Assembly (NCBI RefSeq): GCF_004364935.1
Contig: NZ_SOBT01000011.1
Location: 186,001-250,000, forward strand
Direction of reading: 5' to 3'
Length of the DNA: 64,000 nucleotides
From: Panacagrimonas perspica
Lineage (GTDB): Bacteria > Pseudomonadota > Gammaproteobacteria > Nevskiales > Nevskiaceae
The first letter of the stretch is position 1. Each line of letters begins with the position of its first letter. The translations under genes and the position numbers were made by a program. Of the stretch, positions 45,072 through 55,824 are shown one piece after another. A model generated the notes under the pieces. The model saw only the letters and a list, made by a program, of their open reading frames with translations, had not been told where the DNA came from and did not search any database.

Positions 45072-45312
45072 GTCGACGGCACCAGCGAGGGGCCGTTCGC
45101 GGCTCGTCGCCATGCTGCAGTGCGATGCCCGGCAGCAGGCCGGCATACCGCACGATGGCCCCCCCGATGTTGCGGCCCGCCCCCCCCATCGCGAGGGAAG
45201 CGGCGGGAGCGTGCACCCGATAACTTCTCCCTACGGTCGCAGGCGTGGACTTCGCACCGGCCGGCCCCGCGCAAAGCGGTGGACCCACTACAGAATCAGA
45301 GGAGAATTTCAG
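45072..45312 (+). promoter_or_regulatory. Leader region of the first BVMO gene
   Basis: 241 bases without a gene. It contains two cytosine runs (around 45156-45162 and 45181-45188) and ends in a good SD, GAGGAG at 45299-45304. No clear -35/-10 pair or repeat is visible; it must hold the promoter unless the gene is read through from the OYE gene. Confidence 0.4.
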
Positions 45313-46947
45313 ATGTCCGCTAACCCTACCGCCGCCAAGGCGACCCAGACGTGTGACGCCGTCGTCGTCGGCGCCGGCGTTGCCGGCCTCGCCGAGACCT
45401 ACCAGCTGCGAAAGAAAGGCCTGAAGGTGCAGGGCATCGAAGCCGGATCGGATGTGGGCGGCACGTGGTACTGGAACCGGTATCCCGGATGCCGCTTCGA
45501 CTCGCAGACCGAGATCTACCAGTTCTGGTTCTCGCAGGAACTGCACGATGCGTGGGAAGGACCGCGCGAGCGCTTCGGCGCCCAGCCCGACAACGAGCGC
45601 TGGTTGCAGTTCGCCGCCAACTTTCTCGACCTGAAGCCCAACTACAAGTTCGACACGCGCGTCGAATCCGCGCACTACGACGAGTCGACCGGCCGCTGGC
45701 TGGTGACGACCGACAAGGGCGACAAGATCGACACGCAGTTCTTCGTGAGCTGCACCGGCATGCTGTCCGCGCCGATGACGGACCTCTTCAAGGGCCAGAA
45801 GACCTTCAAGGGCCAGTTGCTCACCACGGCGCGCTGGCCGCGTGAAAAGGTGGACCTCGCCGGCAAGAAAGTCGGTGTCGTCGGCGTGGGCGCCACCGGC
45901 ATCCAGGTGATCCAGACCATCGCGCCGGTGGTCGGCAGCATGGAAGTGTTCGTGCTCAATCCGAACTACATCACGCCGATGCGCAACCCGAAGTACAACG
46001 ACGCGGATCGCGCGGAATTCAAGAAGCGCTTCGCGGAGACCCAGAAGCAGGTCAACAGCACGTACGCCGGCTTCGACTACGACTTCACCAACGGCAAGTG
46101 GCACGACCAGACGCCCGAGGAGCGCCACAAGGTGTACGAGCGCCTGTGGGCCGACGGATCGCTGTCGCTTTGGCTGGCGGCGTACACGGAGATCTTCTTC
46201 TTCAAGGAAGCCAGCGAAGAAATCTCCGCGTTCGTGCGCGGCAAGATGCAGGAGCGTCTCAAGTCCCGTCCGGACCTGTGGGAGACGCTGATTCCGTCCA
46301 ACCACGGCTTCGGCATCCACCGCGTACCGCTCGAGAGCGGCTACCTCGAAGCGTTCCTGCAGCCCAACGTCACGGCGGTGAACTGCCACAAGACGGGAAT
46401 CACGGAGATCGTGCCCGAGGGCGTGAAGACCTCCGATGGCAAGGTGCACGAGTTCGACGTGCTGATCCTGGCCACGGGCTTCGATGCCGGCAGCGGCGCG
46501 CTCACGCGCATGGACATCCGCGGTCGTGACGGGCGCTCGCTGAAGGAAGAGTGGGGCAAGGACATCCGCACCACGCTGGGCCTGCAGGTGCATGGCTATC
46601 CGAACCTGTTCACCACCGGCGCGCCGCTCGCACCCGCGGCCGCGCTGTGCAACATGACCACCTGCCTGCAGCAGCAGGCGGGCTGGATCGCGGACACGAT
46701 CGGCTATATGCGCGACAAGGGTCTCAAGGTCATCGAACCGACCAAGGAGACCGAAGACGCTTGGGTGGAGCACCACGACGGCATCTCCAATTCCTCGCTG
46801 TTCGCCAAGTCCAACTCCTGGTACATGGGCTCGAACGTGCCGGGCAAGCCGCGTCGCTTGCTGTCGTACCCGGGCGGCGTTCACACGTACAAGAAGGCCT
46901 GCGAAGACATCAAGGAAAGCGGGTACAAGGGTTTTGCGCTGAGCTGA
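45313..46947 (+). CDS. Baeyer-Villiger-type flavin monooxygenase with altered fingerprint (BVMO 1)
   Basis: 544 residues from ATG 45313. The overall architecture is that of cyclohexanone-type BVMOs: FAD motif GAGVAG (20-25), GGTWYWNRYPGCRFD, NADPH motif GVGATG, VLILATGFDAGSGALTRMDI and a C-terminal WYMGSNVPGK. Two positions normally fixed in the family differ. The fingerprint F-x-G-x3-H-x3-W-P reads FKGQLLTTARWP, with Thr171 instead of His, and the QRTPNY segment reads VLNPNY, with Leu215 where the Arg that contacts the NADPH 2'-phosphate should be. The catalytic Arg equivalent to CHMO Arg327 is retained in GIHRVPLESGY. It may be a diverged monooxygenase with changed cofactor use or a ketone-binding partner of BVMO 2 next door, with which it shares most sequence blocks. 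Confidence 0.88.
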   Translation: MSANPTAAKATQTCDAVVVGAGVAGLAETYQLRKKGLKVQGIEAGSDVGGTWYWNRYPGCRFDSQTEIYQFWFSQELHDAWEGPRERFGAQPDNERWLQFAANFLDLKPNYKFDTRVESAHYDESTGRWLVTTDKGDKIDTQFFVSCTGMLSAPMTDLFKGQKTFKGQLLTTARWPREKVDLAGKKVGVVGVGATGIQVIQTIAPVVGSMEVFVLNPNYITPMRNPKYNDADRAEFKKRFAETQKQVNSTYAGFDYDFTNGKWHDQTPEERHKVYERLWADGSLSLWLAAYTEIFFFKEASEEISAFVRGKMQERLKSRPDLWETLIPSNHGFGIHRVPLESGYLEAFLQPNVTAVNCHKTGITEIVPEGVKTSDGKVHEFDVLILATGFDAGSGALTRMDIRGRDGRSLKEEWGKDIRTTLGLQVHGYPNLFTTGAPLAPAAALCNMTTCLQQQAGWIADTIGYMRDKGLKVIEPTKETEDAWVEHHDGISNSSLFAKSNSWYMGSNVPGKPRRLLSYPGGVHTYKKACEDIKESGYKGFALS

Positions 46948-46973: not shown

Positions 46974-46996
46974 GGGCCACGTCGTGGCCCTGTTCT
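46974..46996 (+). terminator. Weak terminator-like hairpin after BVMO 1
   Basis: GGGCCAC-GTC-GTGGCCC, a perfect seven-pair stem with a three-base loop, followed by TGTTCT. The U-tract is poor, so it may attenuate rather than stop transcription towards BVMO 2. The remaining gap to the next start ends in GAGGAGA, the SD of BVMO 2. Confidence 0.4.
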
Positions 46997-47112
46997 CTCG
47001 GCGGCCGAGGTGTCGCCGGAAGGAGGCGACCCTTGGTGGAAATCGGAGCGGTGGTGCACGGGCGGCGGCAGACCGCGCGGCCCACCGCAGGGTCCGCTCG
47101 AGGAGATACTCA

Positions 47113-48738
47113 ATGGCCTTCACCGCACAGGTCCCGCAGCCAGCCAAGACTTACGACGCGATCGTCGTCGGCGCCGGCATTTCGGGCATGTACATGCTGT
47201 ACCGCCTGCGGGAGCAGGGGCTCCGGGTGAAGGTGCTCGAAGCCGGCACCAGCGTCGGCGGTACCTGGTACTGGAACCGCTATCCGGGCGCCCGCGTCGA
47301 CTCGCAGGCCTACGTCTACCAGTACTGGTTCTCCGACGAACTGCTCGACGAGTGGAGCTGGCCCGAACGTTTTCCGGACCAGACCGTGATGGAGAAATAT
47401 CTCAATCACGTGGCGGATCGTTTCGATCTGCGCGAAAACATCCAGTTCAACACGCGCGTCAAGGCCGCCCGATACGACGAGAAGAGCGGCCGCTGGACCA
47501 TCACGACGATGATGGGCGAAGTGTTCGACACGCAGTACGCCGCATTCTGCACCGGTGGTATCTCGGCACCGCTGGTGCCGTCGTTTCCGGGCCATGAGAA
47601 GTTCAGGGGGCAGATCATCCACACCGCCCGCTGGCCCAAGGAGGAGGTCGATTTCTCCGGCCTGCGCGTGGGCATCGTGGGCACCGGCGCCACCGGCATC
47701 CAGGTGATCCAGACCGTCGGGCCGCAGTGCGCGCACCTGACGGTGTTCCAGCGCACGCCGAACTACGCGGTGCCGATGCGCAATCCGAAGTACGGGCCCG
47801 GTGACATGCAGGCCTTCCGCGAGCGCTACGGCGATCTCAAGAAGCGCGTACATCGCACGTTCGCGGGCTTCGATTACGACTTCCAGGACAAGACGTTCCG
47901 CCAGACCGATCCCGAGGAGCGCGAGGCGATCCTCGAACGCCTGTGGGCCGACGGCTCGCTGGCGATGTGGATCGGTGGCTTCAGCGATCTGTTCACGGAC
48001 GCGGAGGTCAACGAGGAAATCTCGAAGTTCGTACGCGGCAAGATCCGCGAACGCATTCGCGATCCGAAAGTCGCCGACAAGCTGGTGCCGACGACGTACG
48101 GATTCGGAACGCGACGGGTTCCGCTGGAGACGCAGTATTACGAGACCTTCAACCGCGACAACGTGGAGCTGGTCGACATCAGCGACGAGAAGATCGAGGC
48201 GATCACCGCGAACGGGGTGCGCACGTCGAAGCAGGAATATCCGCTCGACCTGCTGATCTTCGCGACCGGGTTCGACGCGGGAACCGGTGCGCTGTCGGCC
48301 ATCGATGTCCGCGGCCGCGATAACATCTCGCTCAAGGAGAGCTGGAAACAGGGCATCCGCACGACGATGGGCCTGTCGGTGCACGGGTATCCCAACTTGT
48401 TCACGACGATGGCGCCGTTCGCGCCCGCGGCGGCGTTCTGCAACGTGCCGACCTGCCTGCAGCAGCAGGTCGACTGGATCAGCGACTGCATCCAGCACTC
48501 GCGCTCGAAGGGCGCGATGCGCGTCGAGCCGACGCGCGACATGGAAGACCGCTGGATCGCGCACCACGACGAAGTCGCCAACATGACGCTGATCACCAAG
48601 ACCCGGTCCTGGTACATGGGCAGCAACGTGGAGGGCAAGCCGCCGCGCCTGCTGTCGTACATGGGCGGTGTCGGTGCGTACCGGCAGCAGTGCGAGGATG
48701 TGAAGGCGAGTGGCTACGAAGGATTCTCGATGTCCTGA
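47113..48738 (+). CDS. Baeyer-Villiger flavin monooxygenase (cyclohexanone-monooxygenase type, BVMO 2)
   Basis: 541 residues from ATG 47113 with SD GAGGAGA. All BVMO signatures are canonical: FAD motif GAGISG, GGTWYWNRYPGARVDSQAYV, fingerprint FRGQIIHTARWP with His170, NADPH motif GTGATG, VFQRTPNY with the 2'-phosphate Arg, and the active-site Arg in FGTRRVPLETQYY. FATGFDAGTGALSAIDVRGR and SWYMGSNVEGK complete the fold. It inserts oxygen next to a ketone to form an ester or lactone; cyclic ketones, steroids or terpenoids are possible substrates. It is clearly paralogous to BVMO 1 along its whole length and ends at a strong terminator. Confidence 0.93.
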   Translation: MAFTAQVPQPAKTYDAIVVGAGISGMYMLYRLREQGLRVKVLEAGTSVGGTWYWNRYPGARVDSQAYVYQYWFSDELLDEWSWPERFPDQTVMEKYLNHVADRFDLRENIQFNTRVKAARYDEKSGRWTITTMMGEVFDTQYAAFCTGGISAPLVPSFPGHEKFRGQIIHTARWPKEEVDFSGLRVGIVGTGATGIQVIQTVGPQCAHLTVFQRTPNYAVPMRNPKYGPGDMQAFRERYGDLKKRVHRTFAGFDYDFQDKTFRQTDPEEREAILERLWADGSLAMWIGGFSDLFTDAEVNEEISKFVRGKIRERIRDPKVADKLVPTTYGFGTRRVPLETQYYETFNRDNVELVDISDEKIEAITANGVRTSKQEYPLDLLIFATGFDAGTGALSAIDVRGRDNISLKESWKQGIRTTMGLSVHGYPNLFTTMAPFAPAAAFCNVPTCLQQQVDWISDCIQHSRSKGAMRVEPTRDMEDRWIAHHDEVANMTLITKTRSWYMGSNVEGKPPRLLSYMGGVGAYRQQCEDVKASGYEGFSMS

Positions 48739-48755
48739 AGCCAACGTGATGCATG

Positions 48756-48790
48756 AAAAAAGGGCCGCATCAGCGGCCCTTTCTGTTTTC
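48756..48790. terminator. Bidirectional intrinsic terminator
   Basis: AGGGCCGC-ATCA-GCGGCCCT (48761-48780), an eight-pair stem with four-base loop, has AAAAAA on the left and TTTTCTGTTTT on the right. It can end BVMO 2 on the plus strand and the glutamine-rich gene on the minus strand. Confidence 0.88.
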
Positions 48791-48888
48791 CATGATCGTC
48801 CTGTGACGCAATGATCTCGACGATCGGTCCAAGCTACGCGGACGCCGCTGGCAATGACGCGCGCCGAGCGGACCCTGCGATCGTCATG

Positions 48889-49185
48889 CTATCGCCCGGC
48901 CTGTTTGTCGCCCTGCTTCTGATCCGGTTCGATCTGGTGGCGGCCCTGCTGGTCGCGCTTCGGATCCTGGTTGTTGCCCTGCTGCTGATCGCGATTGGAC
49001 TCGTTGCCCTGCTGTCCCTGCTGGCGCGACTGGCCGCCGTCAGACGGGTTGTCGCCCTGCTGACGGCTGCGGTTCGGGTCGTCCTGCTGACCCTGCTGCC
49101 GCGCTTGATCCGCCTGCTGCTGGGCGTCGGTCTTCTGGCCTTGCTGGCCCTGCTGATTGCGACTCTGGTCGTTCTTCTGATTCAT
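48889..49185 (-). CDS. Glutamine-rich, hydrophilic, probably disordered small protein
   Basis: 98 residues, of which 32 are Gln, with Asp, Gly, Asn, Arg and Lys making up most of the rest. There is one isoleucine and no Leu, Val, Phe, Tyr, Trp or Cys. Short units QQGQQG recur through the chain. It must be unfolded and very soluble, like hydrophilins or other desiccation/stress proteins, though I can name no family. The ATG (49183-49185) has SD GGAG at the right distance, but that SD lies in a strong hairpin. The opposite strand has a long open frame of poly-Leu/Val/Ala that is a mirror of this composition and not a credible gene. A terminator with a T-tract on this strand follows at 48756-48790. 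Confidence 0.72.
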   Translation of the reverse strand: MNQKNDQSRNQQGQQGQKTDAQQQADQARQQGQQDDPNRSRQQGDNPSDGGQSRQQGQQGNESNRDQQQGNNQDPKRDQQGRHQIEPDQKQGDKQAGR

Positions 49186-49190
49186 CAGAT

Positions 49191-49229
49191 TCTCCAGTGG
49201 TGGCCGGCAGAAATGCCGGACCCTGGAGA
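49191..49229 (-). promoter_or_regulatory. Hairpin masking the Shine-Dalgarno of the glutamine-rich gene
   Basis: Read on the minus strand: TCTCCAG, GGT, CCGGCA, loop TTTC, TGCCGG, CCACCA, CTGGAGA, then AATCTG... leading to the ATG. The two stems (seven and six perfect pairs, with a 3x6 internal loop) include the whole SD GGAG in the lower stem. Such a structure would limit ribosome access until melted, bound or unfolded, as in RNA thermometers or other translational switches. Confidence 0.6.
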
Positions 49230-49525
49230 GGTCGCAGGGAGCATACCCAGGTGGCCGATCCGCGCAGAAATCGGCGACTTATTCGGATAAATACTAGCGC
49301 GCGCCCGTGTGCACTCGAACGCGTGATCAAGGCTCGGGCGCTCTGCCTTGCTCCGGTCGATTCCATTCGTTTTGCCGTGAAGCCGGATGCGCTGCGGTGT
49401 GCAGGCTGCGAGGCCTGGAACGGGCCTTCATGCGGCGCAGGGTTGTAAGCTGCGATCAGCGATGGGTGAATCGCACAGATCGATCGACGACCCGCAACGA
49501 GGTCATCAACGGGAGGAGCTTTGCC
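49230..49525. promoter_or_regulatory. Divergent promoter region of the glutamine-rich gene and BVMO 3
   Basis: The rest of the 340-base gap. An AT-rich patch, GACTTATTCGGATAAATACT (49273-49292), is the only obvious promoter-like stretch and, read leftwards, lies about 45 bases beyond the SD hairpin. A strong SD, GGGAGGAG (49511-49518), serves BVMO 3. I see no repeat or RNA gene here. Confidence 0.4.
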
Positions 49526-50983
49526 ATGCGCAACACGCATTTCGATGTCCTGATCCTCGGTGCGGGTCTCTCCGGCATCGGCGCTGCCTGCCACCTGACG
49601 CGCAAGCTCAAGAACAAGACCTACGCGATCCTCGAGCGGCGCAGCGCCATCGGCGGAACCTGGGACCTGTTTCGTTATCCGGGCATCCGGTCGGACTCGG
49701 ACATGTCGACCTTCGGATACAACTTCCGTCCCTGGCGCGAACCCAAGGTGCTGGCCGACGGCGCGTCGATCAAGCGCTACGTCAACGACGCGGCCGGGCA
49801 GTACGGGGTCACGCCGCACATCCACTTCGGCCGCAAGGTATTGCGCGCGGACTGGTCGTCCGCGAAGACGCTGTGGTCGGTGACGGTGCTCAACGAGCAG
49901 ACCGGCGTCGAAGAGATCTACACCGCGCCGTTCGTCATCGCGGCCACCGGCTACTACAGCTATGACGGTGGCTTCACGCCGGAATTCCCGGGCAGCAAGG
50001 AGTTCAAGGGGCAGATCGTCCACCCGCAGCACTGGCCCGAGCAGCTCGACTACGCGGGCAAGAAGGTCGTCGTCATCGGTAGCGGTGCCACCGCCATCAC
50101 GCTGGTGCCCTCGATGGCCGCAGGCGGCGCGAAGGTGACGATGCTGCAGCGCTCGCCGACCTACGTGCTGTCAGTGCCCGCGGTCGATCCGCTGTGGTCC
50201 AAGCTGTCGCGCTTCATGCCGTCCAAGGCCGTGTACCTGGCCACGCGCATCCGCAACATCGGCTTGCAGCGTGCGCTGTTCGTCGCGTCGCGTGAACGGC
50301 CCAAGGTCGTCAAGCGGCTGCTGCACAAGCTCACCGCGCACCAGCTCGGCGGCGAAGTCGACATCAAGCACTTCTCGCCGCGCTACAACCCCTGGGACGA
50401 GCGCCTGTGCGTCGTGCCCGATGGCGATCTGTTCCGCGCGCTGCGCAAGGGCGCGGCGCATATCGTCACCGACAAGATCAAGGCCTTCGATGCGACCGGC
50501 ATCCAGCTGGAATCCGGCGGACATCTCGACGCCGACATCATCGTCACCGCGACCGGACTGAACCTTCAGCTCTTCGGCGGCGCGAAGATGAACATCGACG
50601 GTGAGCCCGTCGTCATCAAGGAGCGGCTGGTCTACAAGGGGATGATGATCGACCGAGTGCCGAACCTGCTCGCGATCTTCGGCTACACCAATGCGTCTTG
50701 GACGCTGAAGGCCGACATCGTCACCGAGCACTTCATCCGCATGATCGCGCACATGGACAAGAAGAAGTTCAAGACCGTCACGCCGCGTGCGAAGGGCATC
50801 AAGCTCACGCAGGACACGGTGATGGGAAGCCTGGCGTCGGGTTATGTGCGACGTGGCGCCGACAACCTGCCGCGGCAGGGCGACAAGGCGCCGTGGACGG
50901 TGCTCAACGATTACCTGCGCGATGCGGCGGCGCTGAAGCTGGGGTCGGTGACGAACAAGGCGCTGGAGTACGAGGCGCGCTGA
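49526..50983 (+). CDS. EthA-like flavin monooxygenase (BVMO 3)
   Basis: 485 residues from ATG 49526. It is close in length and sequence to mycobacterial EthA (489 residues), the BVMO that activates ethionamide and oxidises ketones and thioethers. Shared blocks are GGTWDLFRYPGIRSDSDM, fingerprint FKGQIVHPQHWP with His166, VVIGSGATAITLVPSMA, MLQRSPTYVLS, HYNPWDERLC-like RYNPWDERLCVVPDGDLFRA, TATGLNLQLFGGAKMNIDGE and GYTNASWTLKAD. It is a different subfamily from BVMO 1 and 2. It has its own strong SD, GGGAGGAG, and is followed by a half copy of the palindromic repeat. Confidence 0.93.
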   Translation: MRNTHFDVLILGAGLSGIGAACHLTRKLKNKTYAILERRSAIGGTWDLFRYPGIRSDSDMSTFGYNFRPWREPKVLADGASIKRYVNDAAGQYGVTPHIHFGRKVLRADWSSAKTLWSVTVLNEQTGVEEIYTAPFVIAATGYYSYDGGFTPEFPGSKEFKGQIVHPQHWPEQLDYAGKKVVVIGSGATAITLVPSMAAGGAKVTMLQRSPTYVLSVPAVDPLWSKLSRFMPSKAVYLATRIRNIGLQRALFVASRERPKVVKRLLHKLTAHQLGGEVDIKHFSPRYNPWDERLCVVPDGDLFRALRKGAAHIVTDKIKAFDATGIQLESGGHLDADIIVTATGLNLQLFGGAKMNIDGEPVVIKERLVYKGMMIDRVPNLLAIFGYTNASWTLKADIVTEHFIRMIAHMDKKKFKTVTPRAKGIKLTQDTVMGSLASGYVRRGADNLPRQGDKAPWTVLNDYLRDAAALKLGSVTNKALEYEAR

Positions 50984-51374: not shown

Positions 51375-54122
51375 TCAGGCGGGTGCGGAGAACAGGTTCT
51401 GCCGGCGCGATTCGGTCACGGCCTGGGCGCGCGTGGAGACGCCGAGCTTCACGAAGATGTTCTTCAGGTACCACTTCACCGTCTCGACGCCGATGGCGAG
51501 CGCGCGCGCGATCTCCTTGTTCGAGCGCCCCTGCTCGAGCAGGCGCAGCACCTCGGTTTCGCGCGCGGTGAGTTCCGCGACGCGTGTGCGCGAACCCGAC
51601 TGGCCGCGCACACCGTGTGCCGGATGCCGGCTGATCATCAGCAGGCGTTGGGCCGTGGCGCTGAAGCGCACGCCCTCGCCGGCGTCGGCACCGTGCTTGC
51701 GGCAATGGTCGCGCGCGCGTTCCAGGATCGTGATCAGCGGCGGCCCCTCGTCGAGCAGCGAGCGGATCAGACCCAGCGGAACGGCCTCGTCGACGGTATC
51801 GAGCAGCGCGCGTTCGGCTTCCGCGGCCTCACCATCGAGGTCCAGCGCCACCGACAGCAGGATGCGCATGACCAGTTCCTGCAGCTTCTGTCCGCGGCGC
51901 GTGGCGGCGGCGATCTGTGCACGCAGGATGCCCACCGCCAGCCCCGCGGTGCCGCGCGCGCACAGCAGGCGCGCCTTGGCGGTCGCGATATAGACGCGCA
52001 CCTCGTCGCTGTCGGTGGGCTGCTGGCGGGTGTCGACCTCGGCCAGGATCTGCTCGGCGCCGCGCACGTCCCCCCCGGTCAGCTTCACGCGCACGCGTTC
52101 GCAGGCCACCGCGACGCGCAGCCGGTCGAGCGACAGCGCGCGTCCCGTGTCCTCGCCTTCCTGGAGGATCGCCAGCGCTTCCTCGGCGTCGCCCTTGAGC
52201 AGCATCAGGCGGCTGCTCGACAGGTAGGTCGCGGTGTAGAAATCCACGACGCCGCCTTCGAAGCCGAGCACGCGGCTGTCGCTGAGCAGGCGCTCGGCCC
52301 GGGCCAGATCATTCTCTTCGTACAAGAGCTGGCCGAGCAGCGCGCCGGCGAGCCGCGCTGCGTGGGACTGGCGTCCGGCCGTACGGATCGCCACGTCCAT
52401 CGCGCCCGAGAACATCTCGCGCGCCGCACCCAGGCGCCCTGCGCTCTGCGCGGCGATGCCGTCGAAACAGCGGCCGTAGACCGCCGCGAAGACACCCTCG
52501 ACCCGATCCTGATAGGCGCGCGCCGACAGCATCAGCGGCGCGACCTTGCCGTAGTCCGAGGCCCGGATGTAGCAGTACGCCCGGATGTTGGCGGCCACCG
52601 CGACGGCCCAGGGCGAGAACTTGTCGACCTGCGAGAGGACCGGCTTCACGAGTTGCTCGACGCCGGTGATCTGGTCCGCGTAGACGCTGTTGCACGCGCG
52701 CACGCACTTGGCCTCGTCGAGCAGCAGCGCCTTCTGCTGCGGCGGCGCGGCCTCGGCGAGGCGCTCGACGTGCCACAGCGCTTCCATCGATTCCTGGCGG
52801 CGATGCGTCAGGCAGGTGGCCCAGGCGATGGCCATCTGCAGGCGTGGGCGGTCGAACAGCGCGGTGCGCGGCAACTGGCTGACCAGGTTCAGCAAGGTCG
52901 ACATGTGACTGTGTTCGACCAGGTTCATCGCATCGCGCTCGACCAGCGCGACGGCCTCGGAGGTCTCTTCGGCGAGCAGAGCGTGCTTCACCGCATCGGC
53001 GGTGTGGCCGCGCGACGAAAACCACTCGGCGGCCGCCAGATGCAGATCCTTGATCTTGTCCGGCATCTGCTTCTGCAGGCGCCGGTGCAGGAAGCGCGCG
53101 AACAGGTGGTGGTAGCGGAACCACTGCCGCTCCTCGTCCATCGGCAGCAGGAACATCTCCTGCTTTTCCAGCGCCTCGAGCCGTGCCGTGCTGTCCTTCT
53201 TGCCGGTCACCGCGGCACAGAGATCGCCGCAGAGGCGGTCCAGCACCGAGGTCTTGAGCATGAAGCTGACCTGGTCCGCCGGCAGGTTGTCGACGACGTT
53301 CTCGGCCAGGTATTCGCCGATGTCGTTGGATGCGCCCGAGGTCCATTGCAGGATGCGCTCGTGATCGCCGGACTCGCGCAGCGACAGCGAGGCAAGCTGC
53401 AGCGCGGCCGCCCAGCCTTCGGTACTGCGCCACAGCGCGACCAGGTCTTCGGGCCGAAGATCCAGCGATTTCACCGAGGTCAGGTAGGTGCGCGATTCCT
53501 CGAAATCGAAGCGCAGCCGCGCGGCGTCAATTTCGACCAGCTCGTTCTGCACGCGCAGGCGGGCCAGCGGAATGCCGGTTCGCGTGCGGCTGGCGACGAC
53601 GACGTGCAGGTTGGGCGGGCTGCGCGACAGCAGCATCTGCAGCGTCTCGTGCACGCGCGACTCGGTGACCAGGTGCCAGTCGTCGAGGAACAGCACAAAG
53701 TCGGCGTCGTGCAGCGAAAGATCATTGACCAGCGTGTCGATGACGAAGTCGACGGCGCTGCCCGGGCTGGCCTCGATCACGTCGCGCAAGCCTTCGCCCA
53801 TGTCGGGCTCGGCGCTGCGCACGGCCTCGACCAGGTATCCGAGGAAGCGGTTGAGATCGTTGTCGGATGAATCGACGGCGAGCCAGGCCACCGAGGTGCC
53901 GGCCTCGCGAAGCTGGGCATGCCACTGCGTCGCCAGCGTCGTCTTGCCGAAGCCCGCAGGCCCGTAGACCAGCGCCAGCTTGCGCGACAAGGTCTCGCGC
54001 AAGGTTTCGATGAGCTGCGGCCGCTCGATCAGCGTCCCGCGGTTGGACGGAGGCCGCAGCTTGGTACTGACCAGGGGCTTGGGCCGCGTGCCGGTATTGT
54101 TCTTGTTCGCTGCGCGCTTCAT
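51375..54122 (-). CDS. LuxR-family ATP-dependent regulator (MalT/AlkS type)
   Basis: A 915-residue LAL activator. Order: N-terminal STAND ATPase with Walker A VYGPAGFGKTTLATQW (about residues 52-67), Walker B FVLFLDDWHLV, a winged-helix-like region through FRYHHLFARFLHRRLQKQMP, a long run of TPR-like helices (roughly 370-800), and the C-terminal LuxR helix-turn-helix ELTARETEVLRLLEQGRSNK, then EIARALAIGVETVKWYLKNI. The start MKRAANKNNTGTRPK is the first methionine before the conserved LVSTKLRPP motif. MalT/AlkS proteins bind ATP and a small inducer and activate neighbouring catabolic operons. Being inside the monooxygenase cluster, it is the likely activator of the BVMO genes, an inference from context only. 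Confidence 0.92.
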   Translation of the reverse strand: MKRAANKNNTGTRPKPLVSTKLRPPSNRGTLIERPQLIETLRETLSRKLALVYGPAGFGKTTLATQWHAQLREAGTSVAWLAVDSSDNDLNRFLGYLVEAVRSAEPDMGEGLRDVIEASPGSAVDFVIDTLVNDLSLHDADFVLFLDDWHLVTESRVHETLQMLLSRSPPNLHVVVASRTRTGIPLARLRVQNELVEIDAARLRFDFEESRTYLTSVKSLDLRPEDLVALWRSTEGWAAALQLASLSLRESGDHERILQWTSGASNDIGEYLAENVVDNLPADQVSFMLKTSVLDRLCGDLCAAVTGKKDSTARLEALEKQEMFLLPMDEERQWFRYHHLFARFLHRRLQKQMPDKIKDLHLAAAEWFSSRGHTADAVKHALLAEETSEAVALVERDAMNLVEHSHMSTLLNLVSQLPRTALFDRPRLQMAIAWATCLTHRRQESMEALWHVERLAEAAPPQQKALLLDEAKCVRACNSVYADQITGVEQLVKPVLSQVDKFSPWAVAVAANIRAYCYIRASDYGKVAPLMLSARAYQDRVEGVFAAVYGRCFDGIAAQSAGRLGAAREMFSGAMDVAIRTAGRQSHAARLAGALLGQLLYEENDLARAERLLSDSRVLGFEGGVVDFYTATYLSSSRLMLLKGDAEEALAILQEGEDTGRALSLDRLRVAVACERVRVKLTGGDVRGAEQILAEVDTRQQPTDSDEVRVYIATAKARLLCARGTAGLAVGILRAQIAAATRRGQKLQELVMRILLSVALDLDGEAAEAERALLDTVDEAVPLGLIRSLLDEGPPLITILERARDHCRKHGADAGEGVRFSATAQRLLMISRHPAHGVRGQSGSRTRVAELTARETEVLRLLEQGRSNKEIARALAIGVETVKWYLKNIFVKLGVSTRAQAVTESRRQNLFSAPA

Positions 54123-54204
54123 TTCCGTTCGAGCATCACCGATACAGGGTTTTATCGGAGTGCCGGGCGCAAGTCCACGCGCGCAGGGAAGAACGGCAGC
54201 CGTG

Positions 54205-55824
54205 TCAGCCGCGCAGCATCGCCTGCGCAGCGTTGCGCCCACAGGCGCCCATCACGCCGCCGCCCGGGTGGGCCGCGGCGCCGCACAGGAACAGGCCCGG
54301 CACGGGTGTCGCGTAGTCACCCCAGCCCGGTACCGGACGGAAGCTGAAGAGCTGATGCAGCGGCATGGCGCCCTGGAAGATGTTGCCGCCGGTGAGATTG
54401 AAACGGCGCTCCAGGTCGGGCGGCGCCAGCACTTCGCGATGCAGCACACTGGCCGCGAAGTTGGGCGCATGCTCGTTGATCTGCGAGATGCAGCGGTCGG
54501 CGAACACGTCGCGCAGGCTGTCCCAGCCCGCTTCGGTCGGGGTATACGGCGCGTACTGCACGAACAGGTTCACGATGTGGTGACCGGCCGGCGCGAGCGT
54601 CGTGTCCACGCTGCTCGGGATCACCATCTCGATCACCGGCCGTTGGCTTGGCATGCCGCGCCGCGCATCCTCGTAGGCGCGCTCGAGGTCTTCTGGCATC
54701 GAGTTGATGTGGATCGTGCCGCGATGCTCCGGGCCGACCGCGCCGCCGCGATCCGGCATGCAGCGGAAGCGCGGCAATTCGGAGACGGCGAGATTGATCT
54801 TCACCGCGGCGCTCGAGTAGTCGATCCGGCGCACGGCGCGCCGGAAGTCTGCGGGCAGCGCATCGGCGCGGACCAGATGCTCGAACGTGACCTGGGCGGT
54901 GGCGTTGGAAGCCACTTGCCGGGCGCGGATCATCTCGCCGTTGCCTAGCCGCACGCCGCAGGCGCGGCCGTTCTCGACCAGGATCTCGGCCACCGGCGCA
55001 TCACAACGGATCTCGACGCCCGACGCCTGTGCCGAGCGTGCCATCGCCTGCGTCAGCGCTCCCATGCCGCCTTCCACATAGCCCCAGACACCACGCGCAC
55101 CGCCGGCCATGCCCATGACGTGGTGCAGCAGCACATAGCCGGAACCGGCAGCGGAGGGCGGGGCGAAGCTGCCGATGATCGCGTCGGTGGCGAGCGTGCC
55201 CTTCAGCTCCGGCGATTCGAACCAGCGATCGAGCACCGGCGTCGCGGCGCCCGTCAGGATCTCGATGGCCTCCGGCAGATCGGGGCCCAGCTTCTTCATC
55301 GCCCGATACAGCGCGCTGCCGCGGCGCAGGTTGCGCAGGCGGTCCATGAAGCCGCGACGGCGCCACTCGGCGGGCAGCGGCAGCAGGTCGGGCGGCGTGT
55401 CCATCAGCGCCGGCTCGAGGTGCTCGGCGATACGCGTCAGCAGCGCTTCGTACTTCGGGTAGGCCTCGGCATCGCGCGCCGAGAATTTCGCGATCTCGCT
55501 GCGATTGAGTTCCGCGTCCGGCCCCATCAGCAGCGAACGGCCGTCCGCGAACGGCGTGAACGACGAAGGGCTGCGCGGCAGAACCTTGTAGCCGAATTGC
55601 GTGAGCCGCAGATCGCGTTCGATCTCCGGCAGCAGCAGGCTGACCACGTACGAGGCGGTGGACGTGCGATAGCCCGGCGCGATCTCCTCGGTGACGCAGG
55701 CGCCGCCGACGAGGCCGCGCCGTTCGAGAACCAGCACCTTGCGGCCGGCTTTTGCGAGATAGGCGGCGCAGACCAGGCCGTTGTGGCCGGCGCCGATGAT
55801 CAGGGTGTCGTAGGTCGCGTTCAC
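54205..55824 (-). CDS. PYROXD2-like FAD-dependent oxidoreductase (phytoene-desaturase superfamily)
   Basis: 539 residues. The N-terminal dinucleotide-binding motif IIGAGHNGLVCAAYLAKAGR is followed by VLERRGLVGGACVTEEIAPG, the typical opening of the PYROXD2/CrtI-like amine-oxidase superfamily. The C-terminus has GNIFQGAMPLHQLFSFRPVP, PGLFLCGAAAHPGGGVMGAC and GRNAAQAMLRG, closing the FAD site. Bacterial members occur in carotenoid-like and degradation contexts, but their reaction is mostly unknown. The ATG at 55822-55824 fits the motif position. It is upstream of the LAL regulator on the same strand (82-base gap) and divergent from the DUF3293 gene. Confidence 0.9.
   Translation of the reverse strand: MNATYDTLIIGAGHNGLVCAAYLAKAGRKVLVLERRGLVGGACVTEEIAPGYRTSTASYVVSLLLPEIERDLRLTQFGYKVLPRSPSSFTPFADGRSLLMGPDAELNRSEIAKFSARDAEAYPKYEALLTRIAEHLEPALMDTPPDLLPLPAEWRRRGFMDRLRNLRRGSALYRAMKKLGPDLPEAIEILTGAATPVLDRWFESPELKGTLATDAIIGSFAPPSAAGSGYVLLHHVMGMAGGARGVWGYVEGGMGALTQAMARSAQASGVEIRCDAPVAEILVENGRACGVRLGNGEMIRARQVASNATAQVTFEHLVRADALPADFRRAVRRIDYSSAAVKINLAVSELPRFRCMPDRGGAVGPEHRGTIHINSMPEDLERAYEDARRGMPSQRPVIEMVIPSSVDTTLAPAGHHIVNLFVQYAPYTPTEAGWDSLRDVFADRCISQINEHAPNFAASVLHREVLAPPDLERRFNLTGGNIFQGAMPLHQLFSFRPVPGWGDYATPVPGLFLCGAAAHPGGGVMGACGRNAAQAMLRG

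Follow-up and report, generated by a model that had tools for sequence, protein, structure and literature searches.

The window, the whole 64-kb stretch of Panacagrimonas perspica DNA that was analysed, contains a small glutamine-rich (Q-rich) gene on the minus strand, which has a predicted hairpin directly before its start codon and lies among larger genes, as follows.

45112-46947, plus strand: presumed flavin monooxygenase-like ORF
46984-48738, plus strand: presumed flavin monooxygenase-like ORF
48753..48782, minus strand: intrinsic terminator-like stem downstream of the Q-rich gene (10 bp and a run of six T)
48889..49185, minus strand: 98-aa ORF (the Q-rich gene), start ATGAATCAGAAG, rich in Q, G, N, D and R, without L or V
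49176..49189, minus strand: second small predicted hairpin, TCTGA-TGAA-TCAGA, weak, including the ATG of the Q-rich gene
49185..49244, minus strand: possible 19-codon leader ORF, MLPATSPGSGISAGHHWRI, spanning the whole hairpin and ending TGATG
49191..49229, minus strand: predicted hairpin that buries the Shine-Dalgarno (SD) sequence (7 + 3 + 6 bp, TTTC loop, bulges CC and A)
49192..49195, minus strand: SD core GGAG, in the 3' outer arm CTGGAGA, 6 nt before the ATG at 49185
49307-50983, plus strand: presumed flavin monooxygenase-like ORF
51375-54242, minus strand: 955-aa ORF with a GTG start, adjoining the monooxygenase-like genes

The three plus-strand ORFs around the Q-rich gene are taken to be flavin monooxygenase-like from GAGxxG motifs, and the 955-aa ORF presumably resembles a large ATP-binding regulator of the LuxR/MalT type. 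At E 1e-50, the ORF at 49307-50983 has a homologue in 45 of the 61 related genomes compared, its own genome included.

The Q-rich gene is probably real, as judged from its codon composition, its properly spaced SD, the terminator-like stem and the like proteins in three genomes of the family. The in-frame codon log score is +28.7, and GC by codon position (0.78, 0.36, 0.83) fits coding in this genome. The antisense frame scores nearly as high (+26.6) because CAG reversed reads CTG, and a strongly hydrophobic 159-aa antisense ORF (window 48811-49290, plus strand) overlies the gene; this ORF is probably a by-product of the CAG/CTG reading, and not a gene. The terminator-like stem also follows the convergent monooxygenase-like gene, and the terminator scan reported it in the plus-strand reading only. 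The encoded protein is probably disordered. A search against Pfam and NCBIfam returned no family match for the 98-aa protein, which leaves its description as a stress protein in the sequence-only reading unsupported, and a literature search on glutamine-rich hydrophilins in bacteria gave no result. A phage or plasmid origin of the gene was considered and dropped, there being no match in the searches, one of which is prone to masking losses.

The hairpin comprises 16 standard pairs within 39 nt (49229-49191, minus strand), interrupted by two small bulges but by no mismatch. The outer stem joins TCTCCAG (49229-49223) with CTGGAGA (49197-49191), the middle stem GGT (49222-49220) with ACC (49201-49199), and the inner stem CCGGCA (49219-49214) with TGCCGG (49209-49204) around the TTTC loop, all on the minus strand; the GGAG thus held in the outer stem is an ordinary SD core. 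The outer and inner stems, their coordinates and the enclosed SD had been described correctly in the sequence-only reading, and the 13 pairs counted there are present, while the three GGT/ACC pairs of the middle stem had been overlooked. The start-codon hairpin TCTGA-TGAA-TCAGA did not figure in that description; a perfect 5-bp hairpin lies across the start codon in 14 of 381 predicted starts of the genome. The SD-burying hairpin was rejected as a terminator, as no T run follows it.

The predicted fold of the 45 nt upstream of the ATG has an energy of -25.8 kcal/mol, and the hairpin by itself -25.6 kcal/mol. This leader is the most stable among the 381 predicted starts (mean -10.9, sd 4.5), which were drawn from 464 kb (20 stretches of 20 kb plus the window) by a simple gene finder that rewards an SD in its choice of start, and which include some mis-called starts. 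The cost of opening the SD, 11.0 kcal/mol, is likewise the highest of the 292 starts with an SD-like match of at least 3 bases and enough flank (mean 3.3, sd 2.0), and none of 5000 dinucleotide shuffles of the leader's own 45 nt is equally stable (z -5.6). All of these ranks are post hoc because the spot had been picked out of the whole window by the earlier reader. The hairpin is confirmed as real and as the extreme of its genome sample. Its description as far from what random sequence gives holds for the spot itself, by the shuffles and by its rank among the starts, and is overstated for the window, where 40-mers at or below -25.6 kcal/mol occur on either strand at 27 separate places, the SD hairpin included.

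The same background also speaks for a reading in which the hairpin is not regulatory, being either a chance GC-rich palindrome or a structure within or after whose 5' arm the transcript starts, leaving the SD open. Chance is a live explanation because an equally stable fold is reached by roughly 1 in 200 45-mers drawn at random from this GC-rich genome: 98 of 20,000 draws (which may contain a few masked positions) reach -25.8 kcal/mol, with the SD zone paired in 58 of the 98. At this rate (~0.5%) about 1.9 such folds are expected per 381 positions, and one such hairpin per few hundred starts is within what chance can give in a GC-rich genome. In 462 kb there are 21 two-stem hairpins with at least 6 + 7 perfect pairs inside 42 nt (a count that excludes one masked run), and eight Markov-1 controls gave 5 to 17; the window accounts for two of the 21, one of which is the SD hairpin. 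Against chance, this hairpin is the extreme of a set of starts at which structure is weaker than at random genome positions (means -10.9 vs. -13.3 kcal/mol), and the only argument for selection is that, this case aside, starts are held less structured than random positions.

For the second form of this reading, a transcript starting at 49215 would have an SD opening cost of 2.8 kcal/mol, near the mean of the 292 starts, and nothing would be left to explain. A search of both strands for a consensus promoter between 48700 and 49600 found none, hence none within the hairpin, which tells against an internal start; the sequence does not decide where transcription begins because a consensus promoter was found on neither strand. 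With no conservation of the hairpin found either (see below), we regard a non-regulatory hairpin as a serious contender, if somewhat short of an even chance.

The sequence-only reading had proposed translational control, for instance by an RNA thermometer, and it is this form of control that the predictions contradict. The SD is predicted to be paired in a hairpin beside the start, as in a thermometer. In fourU thermometers, a run of four U lies opposite the SD; neither such a run nor the ROSE motif U(U/C)GCU is present here, where the opposite strand is TCTCCAG. The pairing probability of GGAG is at least 0.96 at 70 C, and the SD is predicted to be closed at every temperature modelled between 20 and 70 C. 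In Pseudomonas, ROSE-like thermosensing hairpins, as cited from PMC3669281, likewise pair the SD in the hairpin closest to the start codon, but they are weak and imperfect, with U(U/C)GCU facing the SD, and range from -4.1 to -7.6 kcal/mol; the mismatch-free hairpin here, with its 16 standard pairs and two small bulges, would exceed the most stable of those cited values by about 18 kcal/mol. At its predicted -25.6 kcal/mol the hairpin would be a lock and not a thermometer, a role that is hardly credible for it.

In a switch operated by a ligand, a protein or an sRNA, the hairpin would represent the closed, inactive form, from which the SD would be freed by a factor or by an alternative pairing. 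An upstream CCUGG (49251-49247) could, by eye, pair with CCAGG of the 5' arm; constrained folds with a freed SD, however, skipped this pairing and left the inner stem largely intact. A competing fold near in energy was not found, the free-SD state costing 9.5 to 11.0 kcal/mol more for the three upstream 5' ends tried. Covariance models of Rfam gave no match above the gathering score in four loci, the window's region (L001) included; five weak matches all fell below that score. With no family match, and no relatives for covariation, we consider such a switch unlikely.

The hairpin leader was found in no other genome by a DNA search of 61 genomes, of which 15, its own included, had some match; the other matches are pieces of 25-69 bases at 15 places in 14 genomes, one of them inside the Q-rich gene of G008. 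A protein search of 58 family genomes recovered the protein in its own genome only (1/58), and a profile search of 85 genomes of the order gave matches in four (its own genome, G008, G019 and G032), the profile having been built from these same matches except G032. A protein scan of genome contigs gave no relative (79 stretches matched the pattern), and distant relatives could be lost in it, as the default tblastn self-alignment of the 98-aa protein covered residues 37-98 only. A pattern scan of named genomes yielded 83 stretches, and among the 80 loci listed 17 passed the Q-rich filter, none of them orthologue-like by eye. Compared with seven loci that carry homologues of the monooxygenase-like gene (L027-L033), the intergenic region gave a best blastn piece of 17 bases (E 0.20), and by this comparison it appears not to be common to homologues of that neighbouring gene. 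Looked for as a basis for covariation, a comparable leader was found in no relative.

A further reading places the function in the DNA, with the nested inverted repeat serving as an operator bound by a regulator and the RNA fold being incidental. The nested repeats do lie beside a start in a divergent intergenic region, and the inner palindrome with a loop of 3-6 bases has 28 sites in the genome vs. 7 for a reversed-pattern control, one other site having a similar loop (TTTCG). However, the region 49160-49280 has no second copy in the genome (next best E 1.06), and none of the 15 of the 28 palindrome sites examined with their flanks shares the loop or the flanks; we therefore hold an operator to be distinctly improbable. 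A repeat element was also rejected: the region is single-copy, the 15 sites have other loops and flanks, and there is no T run.

The three related genomes recovered by the profile belong to another genus of the family (g7), and their Q-rich proteins have the same size and composition, each with an SD. Within the yqeY neighbourhoods of 20 family genomes, Q-rich genes occur in G008, G019 and G032 only. The g7 proteins match the 98-aa protein at E 1.3e-5 to 1.2e-4 with filters off, and not at all with default filters; they may be homologous to it or similar in composition only. Their SDs are partly and weakly paired in short local stems, with opening costs of 4.8, 5.8 and 5.7 kcal/mol, which exceed the mean of 3.3 for the window's genome and are far below 11.0. 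Upstream of the three g7 genes (L011, L035, L115) is a conserved block, GGGCATGGTTCTTGGG[AT]CAT, after which a small hairpin is possible whose stem varies by species (CCCCA/TGGGG vs. CCCCG/CGGGG), and which appears in the predicted best fold for G008 only. By eye, the CCCC segment can pair with an upstream GGGG (GGG in one genome) or with a downstream GGGG; from its sequence, the g7 leader is possibly a two-state leader. With up to 3 mismatches allowed, the block is not matched anywhere in the window's genome, and its sole match in a genus relative (G002) has no adjacent Q-rich ORF.

Another small Q-rich gene was among the 80 listed loci of the pattern scan:

L181, 4292-4453, minus strand: 54-aa Q-rich protein of the Afipia sp. 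64-13 MAG

In its leader, TCCTGTTGA/TCAACAGGA forms a 9-bp stem, and the SD borders and partly enters this stem. The 45-mer of this leader folds at -21.1 kcal/mol, yet the opening cost of its SD is 4.0 kcal/mol; an upstream CTCCTCC could also mask the SD. The protein was matched in 3 of 296 genomes (its own and two more). One relative (L237) keeps the stem in the 45-mer fold, with the SD outside it, and the other (L238) lacks a strong leader hairpin (45-mer -9.9 kcal/mol). In longer context, the Afipia gene and its two relatives have opening costs of 4.0, 2.6 and 6.4 kcal/mol, far cheaper than that of the window's gene. At most, the g7 and Afipia cases point to a loose tendency of Q-rich genes to have structured leaders, and not to a shared element. 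We give very little credence to the broader idea that small disordered Q-rich genes in unrelated bacteria share structured leaders that hold the SD, with the window's gene as an extreme that could be opened only by a ribosome on the leader ORF.

The 19-codon leader ORF spans the hairpin, and its stop codon shares one base with the ATG of the Q-rich gene (TGATG); this arrangement suggests, at the level of sequence, that the hairpin may be opened by ribosome coupling. No SD-like purine run lies at the usual distance before its start at 49244. Overlapping short leader ORFs are found in 29 of 237 leaders of the genome (those of the 381 starts without a close same-strand upstream gene and with enough flank). 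The arrangement is absent from the g7 counterparts: in G008, leader ORFs of 24 and 17 codons both end TAATG on the start, and G019 and G032 have only a five-codon leader ORF, with its stop 57 bases upstream.

Two described systems, as far as the cited accounts of them go, are precedents for a translated leader ORF that opens or feeds a masked or SD-less start: mgtQ-mgtB of Salmonella (PMC8092293) and uPPE2-PPE2 of M. tuberculosis (PMC11260477). As described for mgtB (PMC8092293), the gene has its ribosome-binding site within a stem-loop, and a short ORF upstream overlaps the structured part of the leader. Unlike mgtQ, described there as conserved, as having a strong SD (AGGAGG) and as working through alternative stem-loops, the leader ORF here has no clear SD, conservation was not found for the leader, and an alternative fold of comparable energy was not seen. 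The resemblance to uPPE2 is in the out-of-frame upstream ORF whose stop overlaps the start, as AUGA there and TGATG here (PMC11260477). In contrast to PPE2, described as lacking an SD (PMC11260477), the Q-rich gene has one, and whereas the uPPE2 leader ORF is placed under a B12 riboswitch in that account, the leader here matches no riboswitch family.

The best-supported functional reading, put forward tentatively and at less than an even chance, is that this single-copy leader hairpin is a translational brake on a small Q-rich protein, opened by ribosomes. In E. coli, initiation is reported to drop fast beyond a limit of -6 kcal/mol (PMC3155529). It is well supported by the predicted energetics that, if the mRNA contains the entire hairpin, initiation would be blocked, and to this extent translational control, as proposed in the sequence-only reading, stands apart from its thermometer form. 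The leader would be transcribed from upstream of the hairpin, translation would by default be absent or very weak, and the structure would be opened by a ribosome, not by heat. By the likeliest route, reading of the leader ORF would unwind the hairpin and bring the ribosome to a stop at the start codon of the Q-rich gene, allowing termination-reinitiation; alternatively, initiation might occur before the nascent hairpin closes.

In favour of the brake are the most stable leader of the 381 starts, the costliest SD of the 292, the absence of an equal among the 5000 shuffles, and a leader ORF that covers the hairpin. Against it are the ~0.5% of random 45-mers that fold equally well, the frequency of leader ORFs (29/237), the lack of a clear SD for this one, the failure to find the hairpin in relatives, the weakly paired g7 SDs, the antisense score of +26.6 and a promoter that could not be placed; against coupling in particular is that the g7 counterparts do not share the leader-ORF arrangement. 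Almost as probable as the brake is that the hairpin is missing from the functional mRNA or that it arose by chance. Should transcription take in the entire hairpin, an SD lock of about 11 kcal/mol would make this gene a clean natural experiment on the way ribosomes gain access to a thermodynamically closed start; if it does not, the locus would be a warning on inferring regulation from a single hairpin in a GC-rich genome.
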